From NCBI GenBank assembly GCA_025361485.1, contig JANYLA010000106.1, positions 1 to 43,028 of the forward strand: DNA of 43,028 bases, read 5' to 3'. A program made the position numbers and the translations under genes. The notes beneath the pieces are model-generated. The model was not told the DNA's origin, did not search any database, and saw nothing but the letters and a program-made list of their open reading frames with translations. The DNA is from Bacteroidales bacterium (GTDB lineage: Bacteria > Bacteroidota > Bacteroidia > Bacteroidales > Tenuifilaceae). Positions 7,114-13,435 of this stretch are shown piece after piece; the stretch's first letter is position 1; each line of letters begins with the position of its first letter.

Positions 7114-7950
7114 CTACCTCTTACACCTTAAAGTTATATCTTTAATATTACCATTTACTGTTATTGTAGCCTGATCGTCACACTCTCCCATTCCATAATC
7201 AAGTATTGCCGTTTTGCCATTACAAACTAATTCGATAGTTCCTTCGACAATCCAACGGCAAGCGTTTTTAATTACAAGAGGGTTGGTAATTGTATGTGTA
7301 TACGCATACCCTTTACGGTTAACACCAGTAGCAACTCCTTCAACTGTGAATATATCATCCCAAATATCTCCGAGTGTAGCATAACCTTCAGTCCAAGTAC
7401 GGGTACGTGTGAATTCATGAGTATAAGTTGTTCCATCGGTAAAGGTTACTTTGCCACCAACCAATGTTACTGAATACTGATAATCCGCAATTTTAATAAC
7501 ATGTCTTACACCTTCAATTTTATTACCATCAATATCAAAATTCTGCATGATAATGATTCTTTCAAACTTAGCATCTACAGGGTGACCAAGCACCTTAACT
7601 ACAATAACACCATTCTTAATGTGCCCATTCACAGAACGACCATTGACAAAATCAACGAAGGTAATTGTATGAATTACTGTGTCGCCTGAAAAAGTTGTTA
7701 AATCTGTACGTGATCCTGAACCAACAGGCATAGCATAACTAGAATACGAGTCAGAAGAAGATTTTGCTGGTGTTGTTACTGCTGTAAACTCATCAACATC
7801 ATTCTGTGTATCATCAAAAAGGGCCGATACCTTATCATCATCCTGTGTTGATTCGATCATCGGATCGGTGGTTTCTGATTTTTGACAAGCGGTCATAAAT
7901 GTTGCAAACACGAGTAGGCTTGCGGCAAAAATTAAATTTGTACGTTTCAT
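7114..7950 (-). CDS. Putative lipoprotein of the FecR2 operon
   Basis: I do not recognise this 278-residue protein. It starts with a lipoprotein signal ending FMTAC (lipidated Cys22), then a low-complexity acidic linker (DDDKVSALFDDTQNDVDEF). The rest is rich in T, V, I and G and is probably all beta strand. Two late cysteines (CNGKTAILDYGMGEC) may pair. It lies 28 nt downstream of the second FecR gene and should be co-transcribed with it from the ECF-type promoters, so its expression is probably tied to the TonB-dependent receptor. A surface or periplasmic partner of the receptor is a guess. Confidence 0.75.
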   Translation of the reverse strand: MKRTNLIFAASLLVFATFMTACQKSETTDPMIESTQDDDKVSALFDDTQNDVDEFTAVTTPAKSSSDSYSSYAMPVGSGSRTDLTTFSGDTVIHTITFVDFVNGRSVNGHIKNGVIVVKVLGHPVDAKFERIIIMQNFDIDGNKIEGVRHVIKIADYQYSVTLVGGKVTFTDGTTYTHEFTRTRTWTEGYATLGDIWDDIFTVEGVATGVNRKGYAYTHTITNPLVIKNACRWIVEGTIELVCNGKTAILDYGMGECDDQATITVNGNIKDITLRCKR

Positions 7951-7978: not shown

Positions 7979-8869
7979 TTATTTTACTATTTGTTTAAAT
8001 TCAATTGATTTTCCGTTTACGCTATATCTTATTCCCATTGGAATACAGACCAACCTTAAAGCATCGTTCAAATCCTTATTATTAAAATACCCTGTATAAA
8101 ATCTATTCTCGGAGCAATTGCTCACAATATCAACATTAAATTGCCTTTCAATCTCTCTAATCACCTCGCTTAACGGAGCATTACTGAAGTAGAATTCCCC
8201 AAAAGTCCATGCAACTTCATCGTGTTTTATGGATTGTGTCGGTGATGTTATTGAGTTCTGCTTCGCAAGAGTGTGAAGTCCAGCAGTAAGAATGACTTTA
8301 TCGTTCGATGCATTGTTTTTTACTGAGACTCGCCCTTCGATGCAGCTAACTTTAACCTTTCCATTCCTTGCATATACATCAAATGTGGTTCCAAGCACTG
8401 TGGTTGTAGCTAAATCGGCAACAACATCAAACCGCTTCCCTTTTTTAACATGAAAAAGCGCCTCTCCATTAATGTATACCTTACGATTAATAAACCAAAG
8501 AACTTTATTGTAGGCAATTCGGGTATCGGCATTAAGTTGAATACTGCTGCTATCGGGAAGTAAGCATGAAACATGCTGTCCTTTTGGGGAGTAAATGCTT
8601 ACTTCGCCAAAACCCCAAATCCAAGCAGAACCACCAATTGCAATTAGTATTATTAATGAAGCAGCAATTCTTAGCATTATTCTGCCTATTGGCAATACTT
8701 TAACGTTAGGTTGATTATCTAGCTTTTCAAAGATCGATTGCCAAACCTGTTCCTTCGATTTGCCTGATGGTATTCTAAGATTACTTAACAATACATCAAA
8801 CTCCTCTTCAGTTTTCTTGCTTGCTTTGCCAGCCCACTCTTTTGCAATATTTTTATTTTTTGAGTTCAC
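7979..8869 (-). CDS. FecR-type anti-sigma factor (second copy)
   Basis: The 296-residue protein has the layout of Bacteroidota FecR regulators: a cytoplasmic sigma-binding helical region (1-60), one membrane helix (about 66-87), a periplasmic FecR domain (GQHVSCLLPDSSSIQLNADT, then GEALFHVKKGKRFDV and GTTFDVYA), and a C-terminal domain (about 225-296, FYFSNAPLSEVIREIERQF). It is a paralogue of the protein at 11972-12868: both end in a YTGYF/YTGFF, CIPM pattern. Unlike that gene it has no sigma gene beside it. It lies downstream of the receptor behind two ECF-type promoter matches, so it may feed back on the same sigma factor. Confidence 0.88.
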   Translation of the reverse strand: MNSKNKNIAKEWAGKASKKTEEEFDVLLSNLRIPSGKSKEQVWQSIFEKLDNQPNVKVLPIGRIMLRIAASLIILIAIGGSAWIWGFGEVSIYSPKGQHVSCLLPDSSSIQLNADTRIAYNKVLWFINRKVYINGEALFHVKKGKRFDVVADLATTTVLGTTFDVYARNGKVKVSCIEGRVSVKNNASNDKVILTAGLHTLAKQNSITSPTQSIKHDEVAWTFGEFYFSNAPLSEVIREIERQFNVDIVSNCSENRFYTGYFNNKDLNDALRLVCIPMGIRYSVNGKSIEFKQIVK

Positions 8870-8896: not shown

Positions 8897-8924
8897 TAAT
8901 ACAACTGCACTTAATTTCACCCTA
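8897..8924 (-). promoter_or_regulatory. ECF-sigma-type promoter, proximal, before FecR2
   Basis: On the minus strand TAGGGT is followed by exactly 16 nt and GTATTA, ending 28 nt before the ATG. The same boxes and spacing precede the receptor gene (11933-11960), and CAGTTGTATTA is shared by both sites. Confidence 0.7.
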
Positions 8925-8989
8925 CCAATTCTTTGAAAAAAGTTTAACGAATTTTTAAAGATTAAAAGAACATCGTGCTGTTTTGATAC

Positions 8990-9017
8990 TAGTACAACGA
9001 GGAAAAGAAATACCCTA
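8990..9017 (-). promoter_or_regulatory. ECF-sigma-type promoter, distal, before FecR2
   Basis: A second minus-strand match, TAGGGT-N16-GTACTA, lies 93 bp upstream of the proximal one. It differs from the other sites by one base in the downstream box. Confidence 0.5.
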
Positions 9018-9042
9018 CCAAAAAGAGGAGTTAAAACAATTT

Positions 9043-9224
9043 ACCACGGAGACACAGAGAACACGGAGGTATATTTCTATTATTTTTTGATAATAACAAA
9101 ATCGAACTTCTAGCAAACTGGGAGCTAGGCTATTAAAAAATAATAATAACAGTTGAGTATCAATTGTTCTCAAAAAAAAATCGGGACAAATTGAAGTTAT
9201 TTGCGCTCTCTGTGTCTCCTTGGT
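9043..9224. repeat. Inverted-repeat element, copy A
   Basis: The left end ACCACGGAGACACAGAGAAC (9043) is matched in reverse complement by ACCAAGGAGACACAGAGAGC at the right end (to 9224). The element is 182 bp with an AT-rich interior that has no coding frame. A related copy of 190 bp is at 16291-16480. The interiors of the two copies are not similar. Confidence 0.7.
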
Positions 9225-9233
9225 TTTTTTCTT

Positions 9234-11897
9234 CTAGAAACGCAGATTAATAAAGAAAGATGTTGTAAATCCCATGCCTGGAATTTCGTTATAGGTAACC
9301 GGAGCGGTAAGTGATAAAGGTTCGGTAATTTGGTATGGTTTAGACAAAGTATTGAGGTTATTATATAGGTTGAAAACTTTTGCGCCTATCTTAAAATCGC
9401 CTTTATTAATCTTGAAATTATAGCTAACACCAAGATCCATTCTGTGATAAGGGCTTAGCTGAGCAGAATTCTTCTGGTAGTCAGGACTGACTTGAATGGT
9501 ATTATTGATAAATGAAATATAATCCCAAGGATTGCCCGACCCATAAATCCAAGCAACGGTAAAATTCCAACCCTTAACATTCAAAACATTAACAATTTTA
9601 AGTTCGCTAAGATGATCGTCCAAAGCAGGGTATTCAGCTCCATGATTAATCTTATCGGATTTATTCAGCGATCGGCTTAGTGAATATGAGATCCATGATT
9701 GACCTTTGCTCCAATTCTTCTTCAGAAGAAAATCGGCACCGACTGATTTATTACTTGATATCAGAACTCTTCGAACCTGTACAACTTTATCATTCTCGTT
9801 CTTTCTTAAACTGGATTGTTCAAAGCTGATTCCTTCGGTAAATTTGGAATACCCCTCAAAATCAAGGCTAAACCCGCCACCAAAATCCCAAATAAATCCA
9901 CCAATCAAATGCTCCGATTCAACAACCGGGAACTCTTTACCTTCCGATATTTTCCAGATATTACGATAGCTATTATTGCTATAGGTCAATATTTTATTTA
10001 CAAACTGATAGTAAATTCCTGCTGACATTTTTACTGAAAACTTTTTAGACAACTCTAATAATAGTTGGGCTCGTGGCTCAAGGTAGTATTTCTTTGTTAG
10101 GCTATTATATGTAACTCTTCCTCCGTATTTAAAAACTTTTAAAGCGCCAATCGAATATGTATTTTGAGCCCAAATAGTAAGATCATTAACTCTATTATCA
10201 TATATTTTAACGGTATCAATTATTTTAACACCAATGGAATAATGGCTAATCCCATCCTTTGCATTTATACTTACATTGCTTTCGCTGACACCAAATTCCA
10301 ATGTGTTTGAAACACCCAATTTCAATTCGTTGCTATAATTAAAATTTAAATCATCGATATAGTTATTTGTTATATAGTTTTTATAAGTGATGGTATCGTA
10401 AGCACTCCCTAACAATTTCTTTTTAAGCCTATAATCAATGTGATCGTAATTCAAATTATACTGCGAAACTCCGGCAGTAATGCTATGGTAAAAATTGCTA
10501 TTCCATTGGCGAGACCAACGAAGGCCTAATCCTTGATTTCCCCATTCTGAATTCTCGTTCACCGCCGACAATGTTTCAAAAGTATTGAGTTTCATATGAT
10601 CGTATCCTTGATACCCGCTTACTGAAATAACATCCTTCGAGGTAGGTTTAAAGCTAACCTTGGCATTCATATCGTAGAAGTAATAAACGGGTAATTCAGG
10701 ATTAATGGTTAAAGCGGTTGGCATCCTATTCGTTGCTGAAATATCAGAACGAGCACTTTCTAAAAGATTGTAATACAATTGGCTATGGTATATATCAGTA
10801 AATGAACGGCGCGCAGCAAATACAAACGTCGTTTTTTTACCGATAGGTCCTTCGATTTCAACATCAGAACTTAGCTGATCAGTTCCAATATCAACGGCAA
10901 GCCTATTCTCATTCCCAGTTTTTCCTGTAATCTCAATAACGGATGAGGCTCTTCCTCCCCAGCGGCTATCGAAACCACCCCTTGTAACTCGAATATCCTT
11001 AATGGCCTTAGCATTAAAACTTGTGAATGCACCAAAGAAATGATCGATATGGTAGATTGTAAAGCCATCGTAAACAAACAAATTCTTATCGGATGGAGAA
11101 TGGCGTACAACTAGGCCAGATAATGATTCGGTAGTTCCGTCGATACCGGGAAGAAGTTGAAGCGGGGCAGCAATATCCAAATTCGAAAGCGAGGGAGGAT
11201 CTGAATTCTTTTTCGAATTCCATTGTATTGCGCCACCCGACGAACCATCAACCGCTAATAATTCTTGCGGCGACTTCACAAATATGACTTCATCTATTAC
11301 TGAGCTAGTGCGGTTTAGCTCTATGGTTATAATCTCGTTATTATTTATCGGCGCAACCCTAAGCTTATAGGGCTGAAAGCCTAAATAGCTAACAATTAGC
11401 GTTACAGAATCTATTTTATCGCTCGAAATTGAGAAATAGCCATCAGTATTTGTCATTGTCCCTTTTTGGGTCTCAGCAATAGATATTGTTGCATAGGGTA
11501 AACTCTCCCCTGTCTCCTTCTCCTTGACAATGCCCAAAACTTTATATTTAATTGGTTTTACTGGAGTTACTTTTGGTTCCTCAGGCGGCTGAACTGTTTT
11601 TGTTTTAATGATATAAACATCATTTATGAAAAGCATCTCAAGGTTTGTTTCCTTAAGAATAGAATTGATAACATCATCAATTGGTTTGTTTTGGTAATCG
11701 CCAGTAACGAGCGTTGAACTGACTATTGAATTATCGTAGGCAAATTTAATCTTGTAGTTTTTGGCAAGCATTTCTAAAACCTCATTCAGAGGTTTACTCT
11801 CGAATTTCTCAGAAATTCGAGTTTGGGCAATCGTCAATCCACATCCAATGAGAATGATTACAAAGCTTAAAAGAATATGCTTTATTCTGATGTTCAT
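9234..11897 (-). CDS. TonB-dependent receptor with STN signalling domain
   Basis: This 887-residue outer-membrane receptor should import a ligand with energy from TonB and signal its presence to the FecR/sigma pair. In order it has a signal peptide (1-25), an STN domain (about 40-98, KPLNEVLEMLAKNYKIKFAY), a carboxypeptidase-regulatory-like beta domain (about 119-195, GTMTNTDGYFSISSD), a plug (about 230-330, LLPGIDGTTESLSGLVVRHS) and a beta barrel ending in the aromatic-terminal INLRF. No SusD-like gene follows, so it is not a typical glycan-uptake pair. The STN domain points to FecA-like transcriptional signalling. The ligand is unknown. Its own ECF-type promoter ends 36 nt upstream. Confidence 0.9.
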   Translation of the reverse strand: MNIRIKHILLSFVIILIGCGLTIAQTRISEKFESKPLNEVLEMLAKNYKIKFAYDNSIVSSTLVTGDYQNKPIDDVINSILKETNLEMLFINDVYIIKTKTVQPPEEPKVTPVKPIKYKVLGIVKEKETGESLPYATISIAETQKGTMTNTDGYFSISSDKIDSVTLIVSYLGFQPYKLRVAPINNNEIITIELNRTSSVIDEVIFVKSPQELLAVDGSSGGAIQWNSKKNSDPPSLSNLDIAAPLQLLPGIDGTTESLSGLVVRHSPSDKNLFVYDGFTIYHIDHFFGAFTSFNAKAIKDIRVTRGGFDSRWGGRASSVIEITGKTGNENRLAVDIGTDQLSSDVEIEGPIGKKTTFVFAARRSFTDIYHSQLYYNLLESARSDISATNRMPTALTINPELPVYYFYDMNAKVSFKPTSKDVISVSGYQGYDHMKLNTFETLSAVNENSEWGNQGLGLRWSRQWNSNFYHSITAGVSQYNLNYDHIDYRLKKKLLGSAYDTITYKNYITNNYIDDLNFNYSNELKLGVSNTLEFGVSESNVSINAKDGISHYSIGVKIIDTVKIYDNRVNDLTIWAQNTYSIGALKVFKYGGRVTYNSLTKKYYLEPRAQLLLELSKKFSVKMSAGIYYQFVNKILTYSNNSYRNIWKISEGKEFPVVESEHLIGGFIWDFGGGFSLDFEGYSKFTEGISFEQSSLRKNENDKVVQVRRVLISSNKSVGADFLLKKNWSKGQSWISYSLSRSLNKSDKINHGAEYPALDDHLSELKIVNVLNVKGWNFTVAWIYGSGNPWDYISFINNTIQVSPDYQKNSAQLSPYHRMDLGVSYNFKINKGDFKIGAKVFNLYNNLNTLSKPYQITEPLSLTAPVTYNEIPGMGFTTSFFINLRF

Positions 11898-11932
11898 TTC
11901 ATGAATCCCCTAAAAAGATTGTTTGCTTTGTG

Positions 11933-11960
11933 TAATACAACTGAGTTGTAACTTACCCTA
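11933..11960 (-). promoter_or_regulatory. ECF-sigma-type promoter of the TonB-dependent receptor
   Basis: On the minus strand TAGGGT, 16 nt, then GTATTA, lie between the FecR1 stop and the receptor start. Identical boxes and spacing occur at 8897-8924. Confidence 0.7.
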
Positions 11961-11971
11961 CTGAAACTATT

Positions 11972-12868
11972 CTATTTCTTAATAATGACTCTAGTGCTGT
12001 CGGATGAAATCTGATAGGTTAGCTCCATTGGAATACAAATCAGATCGAGGGCTTTTACTAAATGATTATTCTTAAAAAAACCAGTGTAGTTTCTAGCAGA
12101 TGGAGCAAAACCATCAGTTTTGATTGCAATATTAAACTGTCGACTGAGCTCATCTAAAACTATGTTCAAAGAAATATTATTGAAGTAGAACTCTCCTTTT
12201 ATCCACGTTGGTTCAGCAATAGAATCCAATTTGATTTGGCTAGGTAGTTCTCCTGGTTTATTTATAGTTAAACCAACACCCTTAGTTAATGAAATTATTT
12301 TTTTGGAAGATATCTGAACGTTTACTGAACCATCAAAGCATTTTACTTCGAAATGATCTCCCCTAGCAAGTACATTAAACTTAGTACCAGTTACAATTAC
12401 TTTCCTATCAAATTCAGTAGTAATCGTAAATTGGCTACCATGCTTTACGCAGAAAAATGCTTCTCCGTTTAACGATACCTCTCTATTAGACAACCATCCA
12501 AACCTTCGATAAACTATTTTCGATTCGGAATTTAATTTTACCTCCGAACTGTCGGGAAGAAACTTACTAGTTTTTTGACCCTTTGCAAGATGAAATTCAA
12601 CCGTGGTATACCTATAGGTCAACGAGGTAACGGCAATAAGAACAAGCAGTGTTGCAGCAACGCTATACCAAAGTTTACGAGACGCTAATAAAGGAATGAC
12701 TTTTACCTCATCAATGCTATCCTCCTCAATGGAATGCATCAATTTATCCCAAGAAGCCTCCTTACCTTGTGAGGAAGCGGGCACCTTGAGGTTCGATGAA
12801 ATTCTTAGTATCTCATCAAAGTTATCTTCGGAACTGCCTTTTAATATGTTGTCCTCTTCCGTTTTCAT
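11972..12868 (-). CDS. FecR-type anti-sigma factor (first copy)
   Basis: The 298-residue membrane regulator probably holds the adjacent ECF sigma factor inactive and releases it on a signal from the receptor. It has a cytoplasmic region (1-64), one membrane helix (about 66-86, LWYSVAATLLVLIAV), the periplasmic FecR domain (GQKTSKFLPDSSEVKLNSES, GEAFFCVKHGSQF, GTKFNVLARGDHFEVKCFDG) and a C-terminal domain (FYFNNISLNIVLDELSRQF). Its ATG overlaps the sigma stop codon (ATGA), indicating translational coupling. It is a diverged paralogue of the FecR protein at 7979-8869. Confidence 0.92.
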   Translation of the reverse strand: MKTEEDNILKGSSEDNFDEILRISSNLKVPASSQGKEASWDKLMHSIEEDSIDEVKVIPLLASRKLWYSVAATLLVLIAVTSLTYRYTTVEFHLAKGQKTSKFLPDSSEVKLNSESKIVYRRFGWLSNREVSLNGEAFFCVKHGSQFTITTEFDRKVIVTGTKFNVLARGDHFEVKCFDGSVNVQISSKKIISLTKGVGLTINKPGELPSQIKLDSIAEPTWIKGEFYFNNISLNIVLDELSRQFNIAIKTDGFAPSARNYTGFFKNNHLVKALDLICIPMELTYQISSDSTRVIIKK

Positions 12869-13386
12869 ATCTTATAGCTTATGCGCGATCGGAGAATGCT
12901 TAGCGCCTCTGACATTCGCTTTTCTATAGTTTTAACACTCAATCCAAGCCTATCGGCAATATCAGAATAGGTTAACCCCTCGATCCTATTCATCAAAAAA
13001 ACTTCACGCGATTTTTCAGGAATCTCGGCTAAAGCATCCTGTAGTTTTCGGTTCAACTCCTCCTGACGGAGATCGGAATCGGCCTCATCGGAAAACTCAT
13101 TCGATTGTTCTTGCTTCTGAAAATTATATACAACCTTCTGATGTTTAAAATGATTCTTTATCGTATTTGATGCAATGGTATAAAGTAATGATTTTACTGT
13201 ATCGCCCTTTACATCGTTGCGATTAGTCCAAAGTTTAAGAAAAACCTCCTGAACGATATCATCGGCTAAATCTACATCGCCAGTTTTGTAATAGGCAAAG
13301 CTCCGAATACTCTCGTAGTATTGGTCGAATATCGACCTAAACCACGCTAGCTCAGCATTAGAGTATTTGCCTGGAGGTAGAGTCAT
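12865..13386 (-). CDS. ECF RNA polymerase sigma factor, FecI-like
   Basis: The 173-residue protein has sigma region 2 (FAYYKTGDVDLADDIVQEVF, LKLW) and region 4 (IPEKSREVFLMNRIEGLTYS, DIADRLGLSVKTIEKRMSEA). It heads the locus and overlaps the FecR1 gene by four bases. By position it is the likely reader of the TAGGGT-N16-GTATTA sites before the receptor and the second FecR gene. Its own upstream region has a housekeeping-type promoter rather than a TAGGGT site, so it is probably not auto-activated. Confidence 0.93.
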   Translation of the reverse strand: MTLPPGKYSNAELAWFRSIFDQYYESIRSFAYYKTGDVDLADDIVQEVFLKLWTNRNDVKGDTVKSLLYTIASNTIKNHFKHQKVVYNFQKQEQSNEFSDEADSDLRQEELNRKLQDALAEIPEKSREVFLMNRIEGLTYSDIADRLGLSVKTIEKRMSEALSILRSRISYKI

Positions 13387-13404: not shown

Positions 13405-13435
13405 CAAAAATAGTTGTTAAAAGATAATTAGCAAC
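13405..13435 (-). promoter_or_regulatory. Housekeeping promoter of the sigma-FecR1 operon
   Basis: On the minus strand GTTG, 19 nt, then TATTTTTG match the Bacteroidota TTTG-N19-TAnnTTTG pattern with one mismatch. Confidence 0.55.

Follow-up and report, generated by a model that had tools for sequence, protein, structure and literature searches.

Which promoters are read by the sigma factor of a FecI/FecR-type locus, and which genes does it reach through them? The locus raising this question lies in a 43,028-nucleotide stretch of DNA from a Bacteroidales bacterium of the Tenuifilaceae (GCA_025361485.1, contig JANYLA010000106.1, positions 1 to 43,028), hereinafter the window. Its minus-strand genes encode, in order, a FecI-type extracytoplasmic function (ECF) sigma factor, a FecR protein (FecR1), a TonB-dependent receptor, a second FecR protein (FecR2) and a lipoprotein. 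Three copies of a two-box element, TAGGGT-N16-GTAyTA, lie before the receptor and FecR2 genes. On comparative sequence evidence, this sigma factor very probably uses the three copies as its promoters; it would feed back on its receptor, induce FecR2 and control a small regulon. The features of the locus are as follows.

13405..13412, minus strand: TATTTTTG, a housekeeping-type TAnnTTTG box 5' of the sigma gene, 26 bases before the sigma start
12865..13386, minus strand: FecI-type ECF sigma factor, 173 amino acids (TIGR02985, 145.7 bits, cut-off 126.4; Sigma70_r2 and r4_2)
11972..12868, minus strand (open reading frame coordinates): FecR1, presumed anti-sigma factor, with a 4-base overlap with the sigma gene (FecR and FecR_C above cut-off)
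11933..11960, minus strand: candidate receptor promoter site, TAGGGT-N16-GTATTA, exact match
9234..11897, minus strand: TonB-dependent receptor with an STN/FecR_C-like N-terminus (FecR_C, 32.4 bits, above cut-off; CarbopepD_reg_2; Plug)
8990..9017, minus strand: distal candidate FecR2 promoter site of a tandem pair, TAGGGT-N16-GTACTA, exact match
8897..8924, minus strand: proximal candidate FecR2 promoter site, TAGGGT-N16-GTATTA, exact match
7979..8869, minus strand: FecR2, the second FecR (FecR and FecR_C above cut-off; 37% identity to FecR1)
7114..7950, minus strand: lipoprotein 3' of FecR2 and conserved with it (aligned in 14 loci)

Three exact sites in the window

An earlier note, made from the letters of the window, had placed three matching two-box sites at these positions. 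All three are exact and lie on the minus strand, a scan of the whole window gives no further exact match, and 100 dinucleotide shuffles of the window give none (mean 0.00). The boxes and spacing are identical in the three, as the note had said, and the shared core proves longer than it had proposed. Specifically, GTT stands directly 5' of the −10 box in 3/3 sites, extending the core to TAGGGT-N13-GTTGTAyTA. Each site is oriented toward the gene behind it, with 63 bases from the first base of the receptor site to the receptor ATG, and 55 bases (proximal) and 148 bases (distal) from the FecR2 sites to the FecR2 GTG. The site at 8990-9017, which the note had located correctly but described merely as lying further upstream, forms, as the distal member, a tandem pair with the proximal FecR2 site 93 bases away. 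Between it and the end of the receptor gene, two similar stretches in inverted arrangement (9041-9070 and 9191-9235; GGAGACACAGAGA) resemble a repeat element.

In the source genome (3.49 Mb, 173 contigs), TAGGGT-N16-GTAyTA occurs exactly six times, against about 1.05 expected from the base composition of the window. The extended form TAGGGT-N13-GTTGTAyTA occurs exactly five times, namely the three window copies and one copy each on contigs C15 and C78. The earlier note had suggested looking in such a scan for sites upstream of receptor and FecR genes; this describes the three window copies, whereas each of the other two precedes a short gene, with 64 and 66 bases from the first base of the site to the gene start. 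The random genome-wide placement that the note had named as counting against its model is not seen for the five exact extended copies. The sixth exact N16 match (C171:17177), which lacks GTT, was set aside as probably due to chance, as were, after inspection, the one-mismatch matches C171:7017, C97:19267, C145:51092 and C130:13615.

Conservation of the sites in the family

A search for FecR1 homologs covered 60 genomes, the source among them, and gave matches at E ≤ 1e-10 in 36; 20 stretches were retrieved, and mismatches in relatives were scored against the 15-position motif TAGGGT-N13-GTTGTAyTA. Upstream of FecR2 (n = 15), the site is present with 0–1 mismatch in 12 cases, two mismatches in two and three mismatches in one. 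Upstream of the receptor (n = 15), the corresponding numbers are eight, three and two, and two regions have no site. A distal FecR2 copy (≤3 mismatches) is found in 8/15 relatives' loci, 68–83 bases from the proximal one; a tandem pair is often seen before FecR2. The spacers vary between sites and between species, and the boxes are kept. In one relative (G033), a site-like TAGGGT-N16-GTAATA (L100:8628-8655) precedes a second receptor gene that is divergent from the sigma gene.

The upstream region of the sigma gene itself is different. As the earlier note had observed, the window has no exact TAGGGT-N16-GTAyTA there, and TATTTTTG occupies the position of a TAnnTTTG promoter. Such a box lies 26–32 bases 5' of the sigma start in 13/15 loci checked, window included. 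Among the family relatives, the sigma upstream region contains the site at ≤2 mismatches in 0/15 cases and at three mismatches in 2/15. Judged by these upstream regions, the sigma–FecR genes are not autoregulated in the window family; other clades bear the site before the sigma gene (see below).

Co-occurrence of the motif with the sigma factor

Among 27 family genomes searched, 16 have an ortholog of the window sigma, defined by about 60% identity or more. The exact pattern TAGGGT-N14-TTGTAyTA has 42 matches in 30 genomes and its reversed control four. Thirty-eight of the matches fall in the 16 family genomes with the ortholog, 14 of which have at least one; three fall in the 11 family genomes without it, and one in three order-level genomes. 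The difference between 38 and 3 has P = 6e-6, a value based on rounded genome sizes and on related species, which are not independent events. That motif and sigma are conserved together in further genomes supports the binding-site model that the earlier note had put forward for this FecI-type sigma.

Related sigma factors across the phylum

When named genomes were scanned with the sigma alignment, 157 relatives were confirmed, the best 80 of which (40–87% identical, 1.19 Mb of DNA) were used; 11 of the 80 loci (L180-L189, L235) come from window-family genomes that are also part of the family comparison. The exact motif occurs 44 times on the strand of the sigma gene and never on the other strand; with the 11 window-family loci excluded, the counts are 31 and 0 in 69 loci. 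Among 46 exact box pairs at spacings of 10–22, 44 have the spacing of 16, one each has 17 and 21, and the remaining spacings have none. Of the five box controls, one reached 5 matches and two reached 3 at a single spacing; every other control count was ≤2. Two conserved boxes at a fixed spacing near 16 on the strand of the gene are thus what the loci display, as is characteristic of ECF promoters.

With the −10 box written GTMyTA and one mismatch allowed, 75 sense matches are found in the 80 loci, and 66 of the 75 fall in four gaps, which were defined after sites had been seen in them. The place of the site differs between clades. In the window family it precedes the receptor and FecR2. In loci of the Roseivirga type it follows the receptor and precedes FecR2 in 15/15 (12 exact, three with one mismatch). 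In Prolixibacteraceae/Draconibacterium and kin it precedes the sigma gene in 12/13, the remaining one beginning near a contig end. In loci of the Flavobacterium type it lies just 3' of the sigma gene, in the sigma–FecR gap, in 10/10 (nine exact), with GTCTTA as the −10 box. Mapped onto a quick tree, the site's location takes 12 changes, compared with 45 on average when labels are shuffled; the deep branches of the tree are weakly supported. In two of the loci with a pre-sigma site, a post-receptor site is followed by a gene (L210:13149-13898 and L215:13164-14147) for a secreted, lipoprotein-like protein with no Pfam family.

An account that we consider somewhat more likely than not is that one promoter serves a broad clade of Bacteroidota FecI-type sigmas and has moved among genes of the same circuit. 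It would control the receptor and an inducible FecR2, FecR2 alone, the sigma, or, with one base of its −10 box altered, the FecR adjoining the sigma; in the window family, the circuit would in addition have acquired a regulon of small, unnamed envelope proteins. If this relocation is real, the same parts give positive, negative or mixed feedback, depending on the lineage.

Evidence against, and other possible origins of the sites

Several observations weigh against the sites being promoters of this sigma. In the source genome, the N16 form at ≤1 mismatch gives 33 matches and its reversed-pattern control 31, and the GTT-extended form at ≤3 mismatches gives 217 and its control 282; because these mismatch counts do not exceed the controls, a site can be separated from chance only if it is exact or supported by its context. 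The two receptor upstream regions that have no site are those of G005 and G033. Exact matches occur in two genomes without a sigma ortholog, G004 (two matches) and G026 (one match); G026 is only 78% complete, and in G004 the frame of a small peptide behind a site is interrupted by a stop. Behind three of the 42 exact matches (G004:C29, G002:C7 and G033:C9) there is no clear gene. Across the phylum, GTMyTA with one mismatch allowed also has 12 antisense matches, nine of which are in Flavobacterium-group loci, and a sense site at ≤1 mismatch is missing from 27 of the 80 loci of related sigmas. These site-free loci include all four of Flammeovirga, six that are Flavobacteriales/Cryomorphaceae-like and many with sigmas below 45% identity. 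In the Flammeovirga loci (L193, L195, L197 and L198), the sigmas are 52–54% identical to that of the window, and no homologous receptor is found in the DNA examined; the promoter of the Flammeovirga sigma may differ or lie elsewhere.

The boxes might bind a different regulator that merely accompanies the window sigma, for example a transcription factor or one of the genome's other sigmas. The genome has 19 genes with a sigma region-4 match, and the sites of G004 and G026 stand in genomes lacking the ortholog, as such a regulator would allow. Against it stand the distribution of the exact motif by presence of the window sigma (38 against 3), its constant location on the sigma strand beside related sigmas across the phylum, and the fixed 28-base two-box layout without symmetry, as in ECF promoters. 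The source genome also has one other FecR gene, on C97, adjoining another sigma gene, and no site at ≤2 mismatches is present between C97:5000 and 14038. We regard a different regulator as improbable. The C97 locus, without a site near its sigma, and the 27 related loci without any also led us to reject the idea that every FecI/FecR locus bears the motif.

An origin of the three copies by local duplication or low-complexity chance would explain why CAGTTGTATTA is common to two of them. It would not explain why boxes are kept while spacers differ between sites and species, why shuffled windows contain no match or why the exact motif divides 44 to 0 by strand, and we give it almost no weight. 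Promoters of the window sigma remain the reading that we adopt in the following.

Proposed mechanism and probable role of FecR2

The sites, their conservation, strand, spacing and co-occurrence with the sigma are observations; promoter activity, sigma dependence, the signalling steps and the role of FecR2 are inferred. RNA polymerase with the sigma encoded at 12865-13386 bound to it would read TAGGGT as the −35 box and GTAyTA (here GTTGTAyTA), after a spacer of 16 bases, as the −10 box. The sigma gene itself would be driven from its housekeeping TAnnTTTG box. Binding of a ligand to the receptor would cause its N-terminal domain to act on FecR1 and thereby activate the sigma; these steps follow FecI/FecR biology, as set out in the available part of PMC9249621. 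The active sigma would then increase expression of the receptor, and its action at the two tandem promoters would do the same for FecR2 and probably for the lipoprotein. It would also reach unlinked genes, namely those for a His-rich secreted protein and a 43-residue membrane peptide, and in relatives an operon with PqqD-like and ATP-grasp proteins.

The TIGR02985 match above cut-off identifies the window sigma as an ECF sigma of the FecI/Bacteroidota type. Both FecR1, which adjoins the sigma, and FecR2 match PF04773 and FecR_C above cut-off. In the receptor, the FecR_C model matches above cut-off at residues 32-91 of the N-terminus, STN scores 25.8 bits, below its cut-off of 28.4, Plug is only just above its cut-off, and a carboxypeptidase-regulatory-like domain is also present. 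The lipoprotein has no Pfam or NCBIfam match, and its predicted structure (mostly beta, mean pLDDT 74) has no PDB fold match at E ≤ 0.001.

FecR2 probably acts on the same sigma as an additional, inducible regulator and keeps the response in check. It is considerably closer to FecR1 (37% identity, 2.7e-47) than the C97 FecR is (25%, 3e-11), and it remains beside the circuit in the window family and in Roseivirga-type loci. An alternative, which we consider possible though less likely, is that the sites are promoters of the sigma and FecR2 is not a brake, but a co-activator or second sensor of that sigma, or a protein serving another sigma. There is precedent in E. coli, where, in the part of PMC9249621 available, the N-terminus of FecR is reported to turn FecI into an active sigma. 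The N-terminal W..L..I pattern common to FecR1 and FecR2 had been considered as proof that both bind the window sigma; the unrelated C97 FecR has a similar pattern, which weakens that argument and leaves a shared partner unproven.

Comparison with known systems

The locus resembles the E. coli FecI-FecR-FecA system in having an ECF sigma, a FecR and a receptor whose N-terminus may hold a signalling-type domain. A single FecR is present in E. coli fec. The window locus differs in having a second FecR under tandem copies of the sigma's putative site, and also in its boxes (TAGGGT and GTAyTA), in the TAnnTTTG box before the sigma gene and in the occurrence of the site at unlinked envelope genes. 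In E. coli, the sigma acts on the receptor gene, and the sigma–FecR genes (fecIR) are not autoregulated, according to the available part of PMC9249621; the distribution of the sites suggests that both may hold for the window locus too.

Bacteroides systems of a sigma and a FecR-type anti-sigma beside SusC-like porins, as the accessible text of PMC3878776 presents them, likewise unite a sigma, an anti-sigma and a TonB-type porin in one locus; unlike in those systems, no SusD-like gene was recognised among the window locus genes examined by family search. The same text, a 2013 regulon study, calls the prediction of ECF promoters challenging and in need of transcript starts, and it left those promoters unsolved. 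Many ECF sigmas are found in Bacteroidota. Other ECF-type promoter classes of the phylum differ in their boxes and targets. In F. psychrophilum, motif SM6 carries a CGT box close to −10 and stands before type IX secretion genes (PMC9723704, available part). For the ECF iModulons SigW-1 and SigH-1 of B. thetaiotaomicron, an organism with 50 ECF sigmas, the proposed element is TGTT near −10, which is not significant for SigW-1 (PMC12596196, available part). Our literature search recognised no paper with the present motif or circuit; a prediction of it may exist in ECF classification or in Bacteroides dual anti-sigma work. Comparison alone here yields a sharp, testable promoter model, names its sigma and indicates a small regulon. 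The second FecR under the sigma's putative tandem sites, together with the clade-specific promoter places, makes feedback design in cell-surface signalling directly testable.

Putative targets outside the locus

The genes behind the sites on C15 and C78, and behind a site in relatives, are the following.

L054:5005-5433 (G000:C15): secreted protein rich in His and aromatic residues, 142 amino acids, no Pfam family
G000:C78:49517-49645 (L268): membrane peptide of 43 amino acids, unannotated-looking
L262:339-7450 (G001:C13): conserved operon of PqqD-like protein, ATP-grasp protein, PLP decarboxylase-like protein, urea transporter–M23 peptidase fusion, unnamed protein and TPR protein; also at L260, L261, L263, L266 and L267

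The His-rich protein is found in 9/30 genomes, specifically in 9/16 with the sigma and in 0/11 family genomes without it. Its upstream region contains the site with 0–1 mismatch in 8/8 readable cases, the ninth being a contig end. Matches to the 43-residue peptide occur in 5/30 genomes, which are the five of the genus, and the site precedes the peptide in each. The identity is 52–65% in three other genus genomes and 60% over 30 residues in G004, the genome without the sigma in which the frame is cut by a stop.

The PqqD/ATP-grasp operon is present in 16/30 genomes and has the upstream site in 11 (0–1 mismatch in eight, two in two, three in one). Ten of these 11 genomes have a sigma ortholog, the exception again being G004. 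The operon lacks the site in G010, G016 and G020, which have no ortholog, and in G028 and G033, whose sigmas are 39% and 47% identical. In G001 and G004, the frame of the small peptide is located between an outer site and PqqD.

Read from these upstream sequences, the putative targets of the sigma extend beyond receptor and FecR genes. The pattern suggests that the window-family circuit is a sigma with a small regulon of unnamed envelope proteins, down to a peptide of 43 residues. Single further candidate targets are two DUF1566-like lipoproteins and one phosphoesterase, names that were read from the sequence without a family search.

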